Assembly: GCF_002979775.1 (NCBI RefSeq)
Contig: NZ_PCPR01000005.1
Span: forward strand, 62,001-126,000
Origin: Arthrobacter sp. MYb23
Lineage (GTDB): Bacteria; Actinomycetota; Actinomycetes; Actinomycetales; Micrococcaceae
Direction of reading: 5' to 3'
DNA: 64,000 bases
Within the stretch, counting starts at the first letter, position 1; each line of letters begins with the position of its first letter. The notes below the pieces were generated by a model that saw only the letters and a program-made list of their open reading frames with translations, did no database searches and was not told where the DNA came from. Of this stretch, positions 57,971-64,000 are shown piece by piece. The position numbers and the translations under genes were made by a program.

Positions 57971-59560
57971 ATGCCCACCCGTTCGGGCATAAAACGCAGG
58001 CGGTTCCCTTTGCGCACTCCCAGCCGATCCACGGCAGCCCTCGGGCTGGCAGCTCTCCTCACCCTTTCCGGATGTGGACTCAGCGGCGGCCAGCCTGCTT
58101 CCACCGAAAAGGTAGCCGATACCAACCAGCGCATCGTGGTGGACAACTTCCGCGCACCCGTGGCCAACTGGGCCCCCGAGTCCGACGCCGCATACATCCT
58201 GTCACTCTCCGGCTGCTTGGAGACCCTCACCAAGTACGATTCCGCCCAAGGGAAAGTGGTTCCATTCCTGGCTACGGAATGGAAGCAGGCCTCGCCGCTG
58301 GAATGGGACTTCACCATCCGTGAAGGCGTGAAATTCCAGGATGGCACCGATCTCACCGCAGAGGCTGTTGCCGCCTCACTGAATCACGTCCTCCAGGCCA
58401 AAGTGCCTGCCCGCGCCTTCAGCCCAAGCGTCGTCAGTGCTGTGAAGGCCACCGATGCCAAGACTGTTCGTGTGACCACACCCGTGGAGAACCCCCTGGT
58501 GCCGTTCCGCCTTGCAAGCGTGAACACCGGCATTCTCGCTCCTGCCGCCTACGGAGGTGCCACCGTTGATCCCTTCGGTCACTGCACCGGCCCGTTCACT
58601 CCGGTCTCGGAGAAGGCGAAGCAGTCCCTGACGCTGGATCGCAACGAAAATTACTGGGGCGGAGATGTTCAGCTTGCAGGTGCTGAGGTCCGCTTCATCA
58701 CCAACGGCGCCACACGCGCTGCGCAGGTACAAACCGGTGAGGCGGATATTTCCCTGTCCATCCCAGCCTCTGCTTTGTCCACGTTGGAGAATGCGCCTGA
58801 GGTTTCCGTGCTGAAGGCCGACTCGCCGCGCACGGCCACGCTCTACATGAACAACGGCCGGGCGCCTTTCAACAACGTCGATTTCCGTAAGGCCCTACGC
58901 TCCGCACTGGACCTTGAGGCGTTGGCCGCCAGCGTTTACGAGGGCGCTGCGCTTCCGGCTGCGGGCCCCTACGCACCTTCCGAACCCTGGGCGTCCAGCG
59001 ATGCAAGCTCACCCAAGCAGAACGTCGAGGAAGCGAAGAAGCTCCTCGCTGATGCCGGCTACACAGCCGCCAAACCGTTGGAAATCATCGCGATTGTTGA
59101 ACGAGCAGAGTTTGCCGACGTCGCAACCGTGATCCAGGACAACCTCAAGAACATCGGTGTACCGGTGGCCATTCAGGCCAAGGAATACGCCTCCGCGGAA
59201 CCCGACGTTCTGGCGGGCAACTACGACATGATCCTGAGTCAGCGTAACCGGCTCATCGACATCGCTGATCCCATTGGCTTCCTCACGGCCGACTACACGT
59301 GCAAGGGCTCATACAACCTGAGCCATTTCTGCAACGAAGAGTATGACGCGATCATTGCCGAAGCAGCCGGCACCTCCAACACCGAGGAACGCTACAAGCT
59401 GTATGCCAAAGCCGGCAAACTGCTGAACGACCAGGCAGTCAACCTTTGGCTGGTCAACGAACAAGCCACCGACGCCGTTCGCAGTAACGTCCTCTCTTAC
59501 GTTCAGGACCCGCTGTCCCGCTACGTCCTGACCGCACAAACGGCCAAGTCCGGCTCCTAG
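57971..59560 (+). CDS. ABC transporter substrate-binding lipoprotein, family 5 (peptide/nickel/metallophore type)
   Basis: The 529-residue protein has a lipoprotein signal with lipobox LSGC (about residues 33-36) and an SBP_bac_5 domain (LATEWKQASPLEWDFTIREGVKFQDGTDLTAEAVAASLNHV; NNVDFRKALRSALDLEALA). Paired Cys residues occur late (TCKGSYNLSHFCNEEYD). The iron box upstream suggests uptake of iron, nickel, heme or a metal-chelate rather than peptides. No ribosome site is visible before the ATG; leaderless or poorly led translation is possible. Confidence 0.87.
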   Translation: MPTRSGIKRRRFPLRTPSRSTAALGLAALLTLSGCGLSGGQPASTEKVADTNQRIVVDNFRAPVANWAPESDAAYILSLSGCLETLTKYDSAQGKVVPFLATEWKQASPLEWDFTIREGVKFQDGTDLTAEAVAASLNHVLQAKVPARAFSPSVVSAVKATDAKTVRVTTPVENPLVPFRLASVNTGILAPAAYGGATVDPFGHCTGPFTPVSEKAKQSLTLDRNENYWGGDVQLAGAEVRFITNGATRAAQVQTGEADISLSIPASALSTLENAPEVSVLKADSPRTATLYMNNGRAPFNNVDFRKALRSALDLEALAASVYEGAALPAAGPYAPSEPWASSDASSPKQNVEEAKKLLADAGYTAAKPLEIIAIVERAEFADVATVIQDNLKNIGVPVAIQAKEYASAEPDVLAGNYDMILSQRNRLIDIADPIGFLTADYTCKGSYNLSHFCNEEYDAIIAEAAGTSNTEERYKLYAKAGKLLNDQAVNLWLVNEQATDAVRSNVLSYVQDPLSRYVLTAQTAKSGS

Positions 59561-59591
59561 CAACGAAACTGCGACCGACAGACAAACCGGC

Positions 59592-60533
59592 ATGATCACG
59601 TTCCTTGCGAAGCGGACGGTGACCCTCGTGGTCGCCGTCCTGCTGTCGTCCTTTGCTGTCTTCCTGATTCCTTATGTCACTCCGGGCGATCCTGTCCGGA
59701 AGATCATCCGCTCCCGCGTCGCCGGGGATGTGGTGGATGACGCCACTGTTCGAGCTTTGGGCGAGAGCCTGGGCCTCAACGATCCTCTTCCCGTCCAGTA
59801 CCTGCGGTGGCTGGGGGATTTCTTCACCGGGGACATGGGGTTGTCCCATATCAGCAGGACACCCGTGGTTGACCAAGTGATGCCGGCTTTGGGGATCACT
59901 CTCAGCCTGGTGTTCGTCGCCCTGGGCGCTGCGGTGGTGGTGTCACTGCCCTTGGGGATTATTGCGGCGCTAAAACAAGGCAGTAAGACCGACAAGTTGA
60001 TCACCACAGTCACACAGTCCTTCATCGCCATGCCTGAATACTGGTTGGCGCCGCTGCTGGTGCTCGTGTTCGCCCTCAAACTGTCCCTCTTGCCCTCGGC
60101 AGGGTGGAACACGGCGTCTTCCATTGTGCTGCCAGCGGCAACACTGGCGTTGCGTCCCATTAGCTTCTTCACCTCCGCCGTACGGTCAGGAATGATCGAT
60201 GCCCTCGACGCCGAGCACATCTCCGCCGCGCGCGCCCGGGGATTGAGCCACGTCCAGACCGTCATGAGGCATGTTGTGCCGAACGGCCTGGTGCCGTTGT
60301 CCACACTGTTTGCGGTGTGGTTTGCAGGTCTGCTGGGAGGCTCGGTCATTGTGGAGGTGATCTTCGCGATCCCGGGCATGGGCAGGCTCCTTTTTGATGC
60401 CGTGGTCAATAGTGACATCCCCTTGGCCCAAGGAGGCGTGGTGGTGGTTGTGGCATTGGCTGTCGCGATCACAACGCTTGCCGATTTCCTGCACCGGATC
60501 CTGAGCCCGAAAGTCAGTGGTGCCCTTGCGTAA
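59592..60533 (+). CDS. ABC transporter permease, DppB/NikB type
   Basis: The 313-residue protein begins MITFLAKRTVTLVVAVLLSSFAVFLIPYVTPGDPVRK. It has six helices and the EAA loop SAARARGLSHVQTVMRHVVPNGLVP near residue 220. It is a channel subunit of the iron-box importer. Its 3' end overlaps the next permease gene by 17 bases. Confidence 0.9.
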   Translation: MITFLAKRTVTLVVAVLLSSFAVFLIPYVTPGDPVRKIIRSRVAGDVVDDATVRALGESLGLNDPLPVQYLRWLGDFFTGDMGLSHISRTPVVDQVMPALGITLSLVFVALGAAVVVSLPLGIIAALKQGSKTDKLITTVTQSFIAMPEYWLAPLLVLVFALKLSLLPSAGWNTASSIVLPAATLALRPISFFTSAVRSGMIDALDAEHISAARARGLSHVQTVMRHVVPNGLVPLSTLFAVWFAGLLGGSVIVEVIFAIPGMGRLLFDAVVNSDIPLAQGGVVVVVALAVAITTLADFLHRILSPKVSGALA

Positions 60534-61362
60534 CCGTTCAGCGATCGACGCCGCCGCCGTCGTGGTTCTCGTCCTTATCGTCAGTGCTGTGGCAGCTGCG
60601 CCATGGCTGGCGCCGTTCCCTCCGGATGATCAGAACCTTGCCGTACGGCTTGCACCTCCCAGCGCTACGCACTGGCTGGGAACGGACCACCTCGGGCGGG
60701 ACACTCTGAGCAGATTGCTCGACGGCGGCCGCTTCTCTTTGCTGGTTGCCGCGCTGGCCACCGTGCTCACCGGCGTCATAGGTTTGGTGATCGGCGTCCT
60801 CAGCGCCCGCCGCAAAGGCTGGCTGGATGAGCTGTTCACGCGCACCAATGACGTCTTGCTGGCCTTGCCCGAAATGGTGGTGGCGTTGTTTATTGTCGCT
60901 GCCATGGGAACCGGCTTCACATCACTGCTGGTGGCGTTGACCGTGACAGGATGGACGCCGTTTGCACGGCTGGCCCGGACCCTGGCCTATGACATCTCGG
61001 CACGCGGATTCGTGGAAGCGGCGCGGGTGGTGGGTTGTTCGCAGTCGTTCATTGTTTTCCGCCACATCCTGCCGCATCTGGCCGCGCCAATGCTGGGGCA
61101 GGCAACGCTGCGCTTCGGCCAGCTCCTGATCAGCGTAGGAGCCCTGTCCTACCTTGGGCTCGGCGTCCAACCGCCGCAATCGGACTGGGGTTCCATGCTG
61201 GCGGCGGCGCAACCCTACGCGGAAAGGGCGCCGTGGGGGATCATCGCTCCCGGACTCGCCGTCTTCCTGGTTGCCCTCTGCGTGACGTTGATCGGTCAAC
61301 GGGCATCGCGCCGGGCCTCGGATCCGGTGGACGTCCTGGTAGTGGAGGGTCAGCATGCCTGA
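60517..61362 (+). CDS. ABC transporter permease, DppC/NikC type
   Basis: From GTG 60517 (a second GTG is at 60520) the product is 281 residues. It is DppC-like, with THWLGTDHLGRDTLSRLLDGGR and the EAA loop FVEAARVVGCSQSFIVFRHILPHL. Second channel subunit. It overlaps both the preceding permease and the fused ATPase gene, so all are co-translated. Confidence 0.88.
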   Translation: MVPLRNRSAIDAAAVVVLVLIVSAVAAAPWLAPFPPDDQNLAVRLAPPSATHWLGTDHLGRDTLSRLLDGGRFSLLVAALATVLTGVIGLVIGVLSARRKGWLDELFTRTNDVLLALPEMVVALFIVAAMGTGFTSLLVALTVTGWTPFARLARTLAYDISARGFVEAARVVGCSQSFIVFRHILPHLAAPMLGQATLRFGQLLISVGALSYLGLGVQPPQSDWGSMLAAAQPYAERAPWGIIAPGLAVFLVALCVTLIGQRASRRASDPVDVLVVEGQHA

Positions 61363-62947
61363 GCTGGTGGTTGAGGATCTGACAGTCCACAGCGCGGAGA
61401 CAGGACGCCCGATCCTGGATGGTGTCAGCCTCACCGTGAAACCCGGCGAGTTCGTGGCGCTTGTGGGAGGCTCTGGTTCGGGGAAGACCATGACCGCGCG
61501 GTCCATCCTGCAGCTACTTCCTCAGCCCTTGAGGATTAAGTCCGGGTCCATCCGGCTCGGCTCCCTGGACGTCGCCGGGGCATCGGAATCAGAGCTGAAC
61601 CGTATCCGGGGTGGCCGGCTCGGAATGCTCTTCCAGCAGCCAAAAAAGATGTTCAACCCCAACAAAAGCATCGGAGCCCATCTTCGGGAACCCCTCAAAC
61701 TCCATGCTGGCCTGCGCGGCCACGCGGCAAAGGCGAAGGTGCTCGAATTGCTGGCCGAGGTGGGCTTCGAGGATCCACAAAGGGGCGCAAGCTCGTACCC
61801 GCATCAGCTTTCCGGCGGCATGGCGCAACGGGCCATGACTGCCATGGCCTTGGCCGGCCAGCCCGAGATCCTTCTTGCAGACGAGCCGACGTCCGCGCTG
61901 GACAAAGTTCTGGAACAACAAATCCTGGAGTTGTTGGACCAGCAACGGATCCAGCGAGGCCTGGGGATCCTCTACATCACCCATAACCTTGCCTCTGTTG
62001 CTGCCTTTGCGGACAGGGTGCTGGTGATGGATGCAGGCGTGATTGTTGAATCGGGCACCACGGAGTCGGTTCTCGGCAGTCCCAAGACCATGTACACCCG
62101 CAGACTCCTTGAAGCGTCCAACCTGGCGCCCACTGGTATCCCGGAGCCCCCCAAGCACCAGCGCAGTGCCCTGAAACTGACCAAGGTGGTCAAGCAGTTC
62201 GGATCCGGAAAGCGCAGCGGGCGCCCTGCCTTGGACTCGATCTCACTGGAGGTCCAACAAGGCGAAATCCTGGGCATCCTCGGCCAATCAGGATCAGGGA
62301 AGAGTACGCTCGCCCGGGCCATTGTTGGGTTGGAAGGCATCAGCAGTGGCAGCATCAGCAGGACGCTCGTGGCCAACGACGCAAGGGCAACAGCCGTGCA
62401 ACTGGTGTTCCAGGAGCCCCACGATTCCTTCGATCCGCGCATGACACTCCGAGCCAGCCTTGAAGCACCGCTCCGATCCCACAAAGAGTTCTCGGCAGAG
62501 GAACGGTCCCGGAAGCTTACTTCGGCAATGGAAGAAGTGGAGCTGGATCCGGCACTCCTGGACCGGCGACCAGGTCAATGCTCAGGTGGTCAATTACAGC
62601 GGGTCACCATTGCCCGGGCGTTACTTTTGGAGCCCGAAGTTTTGATCTGTGACGAGGCAACGTCCGCCTTGGATGCGCTGACCCAGCGGACCATTCTTGA
62701 CCTGCTCCAGCGACTCCATAGGGACCGCGCGCTGACGTTGGTGATCATCACCCATGACATGGACGTGGTGCGGCATATGTGCCAACGTGTGGCTGTTCTC
62801 TACCAAGGATGCCTTGTAGAGCTCACTGACACGGACAGGTTCTTTGCGGACCCGCAGCATCAGCACAGCCAAGCCCTCGTTTCGGCAGCCATTCCGTGCC
62901 GCGGCCTGCACCTCAAGAAAATCAGGGCCGCACTCCAAGTGAATTGA
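61355..62947 (+). CDS. Fused double ATPase of the Dpp/Nik importer (DppD-DppF in one chain)
   Basis: The 530-residue protein has two complete ATP-binding cassettes. The first has Walker A GGSGSGKT, signature LSGGMAQR and Walker [13 protein letters not shown] (residues about 1-255). The second has Walker A GQSGSGKST, signature CSGGQLQR and Walker B VLICDEATSALD (about 270-525). In the fructan importer the same two parts are separate genes, so the two Opp systems here are of different descent. It powers both halves of the transport cycle. Confidence 0.9.
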   Translation: MPELVVEDLTVHSAETGRPILDGVSLTVKPGEFVALVGGSGSGKTMTARSILQLLPQPLRIKSGSIRLGSLDVAGASESELNRIRGGRLGMLFQQPKKMFNPNKSIGAHLREPLKLHAGLRGHAAKAKVLELLAEVGFEDPQRGASSYPHQLSGGMAQRAMTAMALAGQPEILLADEPTSALDKVLEQQILELLDQQRIQRGLGILYITHNLASVAAFADRVLVMDAGVIVESGTTESVLGSPKTMYTRRLLEASNLAPTGIPEPPKHQRSALKLTKVVKQFGSGKRSGRPALDSISLEVQQGEILGILGQSGSGKSTLARAIVGLEGISSGSISRTLVANDARATAVQLVFQEPHDSFDPRMTLRASLEAPLRSHKEFSAEERSRKLTSAMEEVELDPALLDRRPGQCSGGQLQRVTIARALLLEPEVLICDEATSALDALTQRTILDLLQRLHRDRALTLVIITHDMDVVRHMCQRVAVLYQGCLVELTDTDRFFADPQHQHSQALVSAAIPCRGLHLKKIRAALQVN

Positions 62948-63001
62948 CCCTCTTCGCTACTAACCAGGTCCGCTGACGTCCCGCCACAACTCATCACACT
63001 C

Positions 63002-63031
63002 AACCCCCTTGCCGCCCGCGGTCAGGGGGTT
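63002..63031 (+). terminator. Terminator after the iron-box importer operon
   Basis: AACCCCCT (63002-63009) pairs with AGGGGGTT (63024-63031) around a 14-base loop, followed by AGTTGTTGTTGG. It starts 54 bases past the ATPase stop. Confidence 0.6.
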
Positions 63032-63094
63032 AGTTGTTGTTGGCGCACGGGAGGATTTACCGCGACGTGCTGTTCTTGAGCTCCAAGTCTTCGT

Positions 63095-63116
63095 TTGTTA
63101 GTATGACAGGACAAAC
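63095..63116. promoter_or_regulatory. Shared 22-bp element, copy 1 (tautomerase promoter)
   Basis: This element runs TTGT...ACAAAC and is the same as a stretch upstream of iolC at 18 of 22 positions. It includes the GACAGGACA block (63105-63113). It ends 14 bases before the tautomerase ATG, in the ribosome-site region, where a bound repressor would block expression. Confidence 0.55.
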
Positions 63117-63130
63117 TTAGGAGAAAAAAC

Positions 63131-63535
63131 ATGCCGCTTGTTCGAATTGATGTCAACCAGGGCCGCTCGCCAGAGCAATTGACCACCCTGAGCCGCGCGA
63201 TCCACGATGCCATCCTTGCGGAGTATGGGATACCGGAGCGCGACTACTTCCACATCCTCACTGAGCATGCACAGGGTCAGATCGTTGCCCAGGATGCAGG
63301 GCTGGGTTTTGAGCGCAGCTCCGGTGTTGTGATGATCCAGATCTTTACCCAGGGCGGGCGCAGCCAAGAAGCCAAGGGCTCGCTTTTTGAAGCCATCGCC
63401 ATCGGCCTTGCGCAGCTGGGGATACCCGGCGAGGACGTCTTTGTGGGCTACGTGGAGAACTCGCCAAGCGACTGGTCGTTCGGCTTTGGGCGCAGCCAGT
63501 ACGTCACGGGAGAACTGGCCGTTCCGAGCAAGTAA
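63131..63535 (+). CDS. Tautomerase family protein (Tautomerase_2 type)
   Basis: The 134-residue protein starts MPLVRIDVNQGRSPEQL, so processing exposes the Pro that is the catalytic base of the tautomerase superfamily. Two fused beta-alpha-beta units give the usual double length, with DYFHILTEHAQ and DVFVGYVENSPSDWSFG motifs. It should move protons in an enol/keto acid or sugar-derived intermediate. AGGAGAA lies before the ATG. It lies just before iolC and shares an upstream element with it, which suggests a role linked to inositol breakdown. Confidence 0.85.
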   Translation: MPLVRIDVNQGRSPEQLTTLSRAIHDAILAEYGIPERDYFHILTEHAQGQIVAQDAGLGFERSSGVVMIQIFTQGGRSQEAKGSLFEAIAIGLAQLGIPGEDVFVGYVENSPSDWSFGFGRSQYVTGELAVPSK

Positions 63536-63552
63536 AAGCACTCGGTGTCATG

Positions 63553-63587
63553 TTGTAAATATGTCAGTACAAACCTTTGACAGGACA
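63553..63587. promoter_or_regulatory. Shared element, copy 2, with an extra GACAGGACA (iolC promoter)
   Basis: TTGT...ACAAAC (63553-63574) repeats the element before the tautomerase gene, and an exact GACAGGACA follows at 63579-63587. The paired half-sites TGTCAGTACA and TGACAGGACA resemble the style of the Corynebacterium IolR motif, as I remember it. They lie 110 bases before the iolC start. Confidence 0.5.
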
Positions 63588-63697
63588 TTAAATCTGGTGC
63601 AAAGTAGTCATGTGGCCCCGCTCACTGAGGGGTGGCAAGGCATTGGGGCCCAGCGCTCAAAGGTTTAGAGTTCACAAGAGAAAGGTCAACGATCATC

Positions 63698-64000
63698 GTG
63701 ACCCACGAACTGCTTACGATCGGGCGCATCAGCGTTGATATCTACCCGAACGACATCGGAGTGGACCTGGAGGACGTGACGTCCTTCGGCAAATACCTCG
63801 GAGGTTCGCCCTCCAACGTAGCCGTCGCCGCGGCGCGTCACGGCCGCCGCGCGGGAGTCATTACCCGCACCGGCGATGACGCCTTTGGAAACTACCTTCA
63901 CCGGGAGTTGCACAAGTTCAACGTGGACGATTCCTTCGTCTCCGCTGTTAAGGAATACCCCACCGCTGTGACCTTCTGCGCGATTAAACCGCCTGAAGAC
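63698..64000 (+). CDS. iolC: 5-dehydro-2-deoxygluconokinase, N-terminal part (cut by right edge)
   Basis: A GTG at 63698 opens 101 codons that run off the window: TIGRISVDIYPNDIGVDLED, then GKYLGGSPSNVAVAAARHG, TRTGDDAFGNYLHREL and PTAVTFCAIKPPED. These are the start of a PfkB kinase, and the GRISVDIYPND opening and the TFCAIKPP segment are characteristic of IolC. IolC phosphorylates 2-deoxy-5-keto-D-gluconate in myo-inositol breakdown. The remaining iol genes presumably follow outside the window. Confidence 0.85.
   Translation, partial: MTHELLTIGRISVDIYPNDIGVDLEDVTSFGKYLGGSPSNVAVAAARHGRRAGVITRTGDDAFGNYLHRELHKFNVDDSFVSAVKEYPTAVTFCAIKPPED

Follow-up and report, generated by a model that had tools for sequence, protein, structure and literature searches.

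A predicted inositol-repressor operator shared by iolC and a malonate semialdehyde decarboxylase-like tautomerase gene in Arthrobacter

Introduction

Malonate semialdehyde decarboxylases (MSADs) convert malonate semialdehyde into acetaldehyde and CO2 and also show promiscuous hydratase activity (PMC11641302). They act in the degradation of the soil fumigant 1,3-dichloropropene (PMC10606566), and the tautomerase subgroups consist mostly of uncharacterised members (PMC5818174). Enzymes of the FG41 type are marked by the residues P1, D37, T72, Q73, R76, W114, F116, Y123 and L128 (PMC10606566). An MSAD among inositol genes is already known: IolK of Lactobacillus casei BL23 is listed with the MSADs (PMC10606566), and the iolK gene sits in the L. 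casei iol operon (PMC2530867). MSAD is touched upon together with inositol in a further paper (PMC11656851). Inositol catabolism in Bacillus subtilis passes through the aldolase IolJ, which releases dihydroxyacetone phosphate together with malonic semialdehyde; the latter is made into acetyl-CoA and CO2 by IolA (PMC3176187). On the regulatory side, inositol genes of Corynebacterium glutamicum are repressed by IolR, a protein of the GntR type (PMC9603128), and HutC-type regulators mostly bind GT-N4-AC sites (PMC4494728).

For the actinobacterial arrangement of MSAD and iol genes analysed here, a search confined to open-access literature yielded no earlier description, and the words tautomerase, IolK and Arthrobacter do not occur in the main text of an inositol-cluster survey (PMC9430895). 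With IolK of L. casei already known as an MSAD in an iol operon, the gene analysed here adds an actinobacterial case. It lies in a 64,000-nucleotide stretch of the Arthrobacter sp. MYb23 genome (contig NZ_PCPR01000005.1, positions 62,001 to 126,000), referred to below as the window, in which a tautomerase gene directly precedes iolC. A preliminary description of this DNA had noticed a similar element upstream of both genes. It proposed that a common regulator, probably the inositol repressor, controls both, and that the tautomerase serves the inositol pathway, for example in a keto/enol sugar-acid step.

Results

The tautomerase gene (63131–63535, forward strand) encodes a tautomerase-superfamily protein of 134 residues (Pfam Tautomerase_2, 104 bits), a homologue of the FG41-type MSAD. 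The gene for 5-dehydro-2-deoxygluconokinase, iolC (TIGR04382), runs on the same strand from a GTG start, inferred at 63698, to the window edge at 64000 and continues to about G000:C45:126715; its complete frame scores 365 bits against TIGR04382, for which the cut-off is 300. On the other side, peptide-type ABC transporter genes (a binding protein, two permease-like frames and a fused double ATPase) occupy 57971–62947. They stop 183 bases 5' of the tautomerase gene, and the sole match to the element described below within them, at 61378, has three mismatches.

The reported identity of 18 in 22 bases between 63095–63116 (TTGTTAGTATGACAGGACAAAC) and 63553–63574 (TTGTAAATATGTCAGTACAAAC) was confirmed on recount, and the exact repeat GACAGGACA was indeed found at 63105–63113 and 63579–63587. 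No ungapped 22-base pairing of the two upstream stretches (62949–63130 and 63536–63700) scores higher than 18. First-order Markov resamples of both stretches reached at most 17 of 22, and 0 of 2000 trials attained 18; the repeat is beyond chance. Read jointly, the full element is WATGWCAGKACAAA, a predicted operator of the type TGWCAGKACA, with one copy 5' of the tautomerase gene and two 5' of iolC. The predicted operators all lie on the forward strand: O1 (TATGACAGGACAAA, 63102–63115), a motif match conserved in relatives, precedes the tautomerase gene, and O2 (TATGTCAGTACAAA, 63560–63573) precedes iolC. O3 (TTTGACAGGACATT, 63576–63589) follows 16 bases after O2 as a weaker copy with three mismatches, and is the source of the repeated GACAGGACA on the iolC side.

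A strict promoter and terminator scan of 62940–63720 reported neither a promoter nor a terminator. By eye, a tentative −35 hexamer of the tautomerase promoter, TTGAGC (63076–63081, forward strand), can be placed 17 bases before a tentative −10 hexamer, TAGTAT (63099–63104, forward strand), which overlaps the operator. Among relatives, the 'ccTtg' column group at the possible −35 is moderately conserved, and TTTGTTAGTATG at the possible −10 is strongly conserved; conceivably, TTTGTTAGTATG is an extra regulator half-site instead of a −10. O3 contains TTGACA (63577–63582), a possible −35 of iolC.

Across the whole 5.19 Mb genome, TATGWCAGKACAAAC was matched 11 times with at most two mismatches, compared with three times for a reversed control pattern. 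Only three matches had at most one mismatch: the tautomerase site, the iolC site and AATGTCAGGACAAAC, about 10 kb downstream. The last of these stands upstream of a rhizopine/inositol-type binding-protein gene, at 75 bases from its first possible start and about 111 from the GTG that is its likelier one; a permease gene and then an ATPase gene follow in the operon. The preliminary description had named a search at other iol genes past the window edge as a test of its proposal, and the motif does occur there, at the promoter of this inositol/rhizopine-type transporter. None of the other eight genome matches, all with two mismatches, stands beside iol genes within the 3 kb read. These were set aside, seven lying inside open reading frames of at least 120 residues and one (L010) at the start of such a frame in a mechanically made list.

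Past the window edge, the cluster continues with iolC, a Cgl0159-like gene that is probably the aldolase, judged by its position, iolD (score 834, cut-off 715) and an iolA-type gene for a CoA-acylating methylmalonate-semialdehyde dehydrogenase (716, cut-off 448.5). Genes resembling iolE, iolG and an epimerase gene, a sugar porter and the ABC transporter genes come next, followed by three GFO/IDH dehydrogenases, iolB (269, cut-off 205) and a regulator gene adjoining iolB. The iolE-like and iolG-like genes score below the curated family cut-offs, so their names rest on best match and position. The three GFO/IDH dehydrogenase genes 3' of the inositol-type transporter lie at L002:13984–17104; two of them resemble inositol dehydrogenases, yet score under the family cut-offs.

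The cluster regulator carries GntR and UTRA domains, and its gene, on the minus strand at G000:C45:143012–143746, is about 16–17 kb from iolC. Its best solved relative is 2ra5 (E 8.9e-67), titled 'putative transcriptional regulator'. All 30 regulator loci read contain TGTCCTATCA, which in the 28 measured lies within 260 bases 5' of the conserved N-terminal residues. Taken on the other strand, TGTCCTATCA differs from the 10-base operator core at one position and from the 14-base pattern at four; some regulator loci have a further site, with no or one core mismatch, about 100 bases upstream. The sequence TGTCAGGACA has the GT-N4-AC layout, and this palindromic type is present at the tautomerase, iolC and transporter promoters. 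Its other strand fits KGWCHTRACA, which we take to be the motif of C. glutamicum IolR. There is thus strong support for the predicted role of the inositol repressor as a common regulator, from the sites at these three promoters, the related core at the GntR/UTRA gene and the conservation of the tautomerase and iolC sites in relatives.

A scan of the genome collection returned 176 relatives of the tautomerase, of which the best 80, hence close ones, were kept; their titles are Arthrobacter, Paenarthrobacter, Pseudarthrobacter, Sinomonas and one Micrococcaceae metagenome assembly. In each of these 80 loci (the best 80 of 176), the tautomerase gene lies directly 5' of iolC, an aldolase-like gene and iolD. 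Its operator, again in the best 80, has no mismatch in 62 loci, one in 16 and two in 2, and is 28–39 bases from the start in 78 loci and 83 and 84 bases in the other two. TTTGACA is found in the gap between tautomerase and iolC in 79 of the 80 loci. O2 recurs at the same place, 16 bases 5' of TTTGACA, with at most two mismatches in 77 of them, and is degenerate in L069 (three mismatches) and L039 (four). Within the 970,313 bases of the 80 loci, 153 sites match with no more than one mismatch, and every one is on the gene strand: 79 within 120 bases 5' of the tautomerase gene, in 78 loci, so that one locus has two, and 74 in the gap. Outside the two promoters no such match occurred in these bases. 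The element columns carry far higher information than the surrounding bases. Also conserved beyond the element are TTTGTTAGTATG, just 5' of the tautomerase site, and stretches flanking the iolC sites, which may be promoter sequence. A single locus, L076 (Arthrobacter sp. B6), has a gap of 107 bases without the operator pair or TTTGACA, while the tautomerase site is kept. With so short a gap, transcription of iolC may depend solely on the tautomerase promoter, and the locus is probably a natural fusion in which that promoter drives iolC.

Within a sample of 61 genomes of the genus, a tautomerase match was found in 51 (in G005 as a 49-residue piece only), iolC in 55 and the regulator in 56. Regulator and iolC occur together in 55 genomes, both are absent in five, and the regulator stands alone in one. 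Tautomerase, iolC and regulator are all lacking in G023, G024, G031, G033 and G044, and the fragmented assembly G048 has the regulator only. Directly 5' of iolC and on the same strand, with gaps of 164–288 bases, are 52 of the 54 tautomerase hits, which cover all 51 genomes. G022 has an additional copy, lying roughly 16 kb away from the iolC gene next to which it would belong and preceded at 31 bases by a two-mismatch operator; a second hit in G042 is a 34% identical paralogue, with no site within the 4 kb read. Two iolC genes, each with a tautomerase gene nearby, are seen in G059:C1 (3.04 and 4.13 Mb) and in G022:C1 (1.96 and 3.69–3.70 Mb).

Four of the 55 iolC-bearing genomes (G001, G017, G018 and G049) lack the tautomerase, which makes it a regular yet dispensable member. 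The operator pair at iolC is kept in G001, G017 and G049, and G018 has only a two-mismatch match. A decayed C-terminal remnant of the tautomerase gene in G001 (L184:2805–2891), just 5' of the kept operator pair, speaks for gene loss. With the gene directly 5' of iolC in 80/80 loci (the best 80 of 176) and in 51/51 gene-bearing genomes of the genus, there is support for counting the tautomerase among the inositol genes, as proposed.

The best solved relative of the window protein is the FG41 MSAD (3mjz, E 1.4e-43); 2aag (E 9.4e-26) and the next tautomerase, 6vvr (E 2.3e-07), are more distant. The window protein is identical to the FG41 MSAD at 71 of 132 residues (54%) and to the founder MSAD of P. 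pavonaceae at 49 of 127. It has all nine FG41-type signature residues. In the 80 relatives (the best 80 of 176), all nine are kept apart from P1 in one, L033, where the loss is probably an assembly error, because iolC and iolA are also split there. With its closest kinship to the FG41 MSAD and a full set of signature residues, the protein does not suggest the keto/enol sugar-acid step put forward in the preliminary description. We infer that malonate semialdehyde decarboxylation should take the place of this chemistry.

More distant genomes were covered by samples of the order (119 genomes) and the class (296 genomes). The protein was matched in 15 genomes of the order sample, where iolC was found in 54, and in 15 of the class sample. 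In family f11, all five genomes with a match (43–49% identity) have the MSAD gene directly 5' of iolC, with gaps of 118–306 bases. By eye, TTTGTMTGKACAAA-like sites are present in this gap in all five; directly 5' of the MSAD gene, no site was seen in these genomes. In genus g17 of family f13, MSAD genes occur in 5 of 11 genomes. Four of these have an exact TGACAGGACA 28–31 bases before the start, and the fifth, with a weak site only, lies directly behind iolG-like and epimerase-like genes. All five lie on the iolC strand, 9.9–22.1 kb downstream of that gene. The regulator homologue of f13 is divergent to iolC, and the intervening gap contains TGTCAGGACA in 5/5.

A tree of 37 rows was built from the window protein, seven of the 80 named loci, another 27 loci and two solved-structure sequences; the P. 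pavonaceae MSAD, the FG41 MSAD, L190, L197 and L204 form long branches whose place is unsure. The three iol-linked MSAD groups fall into separate clades: the window group is near FG41 (joint support only 85/71), f11 stands apart (100/98), and the f13 genes group with the P. pavonaceae enzyme (99/94, on a long branch). Such separate clades suggest either repeated joining to inositol genes or an old link that was often lost, both of which favour a functional tie.

Other MSAD genes in the class are not tied to inositol genes. At L234 and L235, the closest outside the genus (59 and 53%), the 200 bases before the gene contain no operator, and their genomes carry iolC and a regulator homologue on other contigs. 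In genus g57, 4 of 4 loci (L236–L239) likewise lack an operator within 200 bases, and neither iolC nor the regulator was matched there. No exact site was found at L241–L244, nor any TGTMCTGWCA with at most one mismatch anywhere in loci L196, L197, L198 and L204. At L240, a different palindrome, TGTCCGGACA / TATGTCCGGACATA, occupies the expected place of the operator, 38 bases before the MSAD gene, and is possibly the site of another regulator. Genomes G290 and G198 have iolC and regulator matches with the MSAD gene elsewhere (another contig, about 590 kb away). Within the order, MSAD and iolC are on different contigs in G105, G148 and G066, and G099 has no iolC match. L234, L235, L236–L239, L240, L241–L244, L196, L197, L198 and L204 rule out any general link of MSADs to iol genes. 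The unlinked genes elsewhere in the class and order signify that the MSAD family is not inositol-specific.

Discussion

We propose that the cluster's own GntR/HutC-type (UTRA) inositol repressor, in function an IolR, uses the repeated element as its operator, with one site on the tautomerase promoter and a pair, spaced by 16 bases, on the iolC promoter. When inositol is absent, both promoters would be kept shut by the repressor. Its release by an intermediate of inositol catabolism would let the tautomerase be made alongside the inositol enzymes and the transporter. The enzyme would most likely decarboxylate malonate semialdehyde coming from the aldolase step, giving acetaldehyde and CO2, and serve as a CoA-independent outlet, or safety valve, in parallel to IolA. 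Malonate semialdehyde is both the product of the iol aldolase and the substrate of MSADs, which may be the most economical reason for the presence of the gene in the regulon. Taking the parts jointly, we hold it to be fairly probable that IolR-type operators here govern an FG41-type MSAD homologue that acts as a CoA-free outlet beside IolA. A wider claim, that actinobacterial MSADs of at least three separate clades stand under or beside the inositol regulon as a regulated CoA-free branch beside IolA and that this is the native FG41-type function, has in our judgement an even chance of being right.

Several observations count against these proposals. The cluster has an IolA, for which the proposed substrate is already spoken for, the tautomerase is dispensable, and the MSADs of L234, L235 and g57 are not tied to iol genes. 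The site at the regulator promoter is four mismatches off the 14-base pattern, though only one off the core, and the f11 MSADs stand beside iolC yet have no site directly before them.

The most serious rival keeps the tautomerase in the inositol regulon and gives it another substrate, through a keto/enol change of an earlier six-carbon intermediate (inosose, the cyclic dione or 5-deoxyglucuronate), in line with the preliminary description, or through hydration of an unsaturated by-product. Evidence from regulon and synteny names no substrate, MSADs are promiscuous hydratases (PMC11641302), and some members of each tautomerase subgroup, in an unknown proportion, may lack the activity of the founder (PMC5818174). 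This rival has to contend with the retention of every listed residue of the FG41 enzyme and with the fact that what the three iol-linked groups have in common is the MSAD family, the f13 genes grouping with the P. pavonaceae founder (99/94, long branch). We regard it as unlikely, while giving it appreciable weight.

Decidedly more doubtful is the reading of the tautomerase as a passenger, whose own promoter would have kept an operator because the gene comes first in the iol transcript, and whose product would serve another pathway, such as detoxification of environmental acrylates. Its absence from 4/55 iolC-bearing genomes of the genus, one with a decayed remnant, and the FG41-like genes L234 and L235, which are not iol-linked, would fit a passenger. 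Against it stand the adjacency to iolC in 51/51 gene-bearing genomes, the separate operator pair at iolC, which makes a shared transcript unnecessary, and the iol-linked MSADs in two further families. That the similarity reflects only shared −10/−35 sequence or chance, with no common regulator, is very improbable. Promoter similarity alone, in the form of a −10 region, is conceivable for the left part of the 22-base match (TTTGTTAGTATG / TTGTAAATATG), but not for the operator core, which recurs at the transporter and regulator genes. A chance repeat is opposed by the resampling (0/2000), by the genome-wide counts and by conservation, with 153/153 near-perfect matches at the two promoters in 970 kb.

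Should the proposed outlet beside IolA exist, it would provide a native function for FG41-type MSADs, an enzyme type described from the breakdown of chlorinated compounds. This orphan enzyme type gains a candidate physiological substrate, malonate semialdehyde, inositol catabolism gains a possible side exit, and the generic 'tautomerase' label of the gene is corrected. A conserved place in the inositol regulon, together with a pathway that makes the named substrate of MSADs, turns the question of the native role into a one-gene test for which harmless soil bacteria can be used, and the operator map makes the role of the tautomerase easy to test.

Compared by description, the locus resembles that of L. 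casei IolK in having an MSAD-type gene within an iol gene cluster. L. casei is a firmicute, whereas the window gene heads the cluster under a predicted operator of its own. The FG41 MSAD (PDB 3mjz, from coryneform bacterium FG41) has all nine signature residues in common with the window protein, but was characterised, in the part of the literature cited here, outside an inositol context. C. glutamicum IolR, again compared by description, likewise belongs to the GntR type and represses the inositol genes of an actinobacterium; in contrast, the regulon predicted here includes an MSAD gene, and its regulator gene lies beside iolB, about 16–17 kb from iolC.
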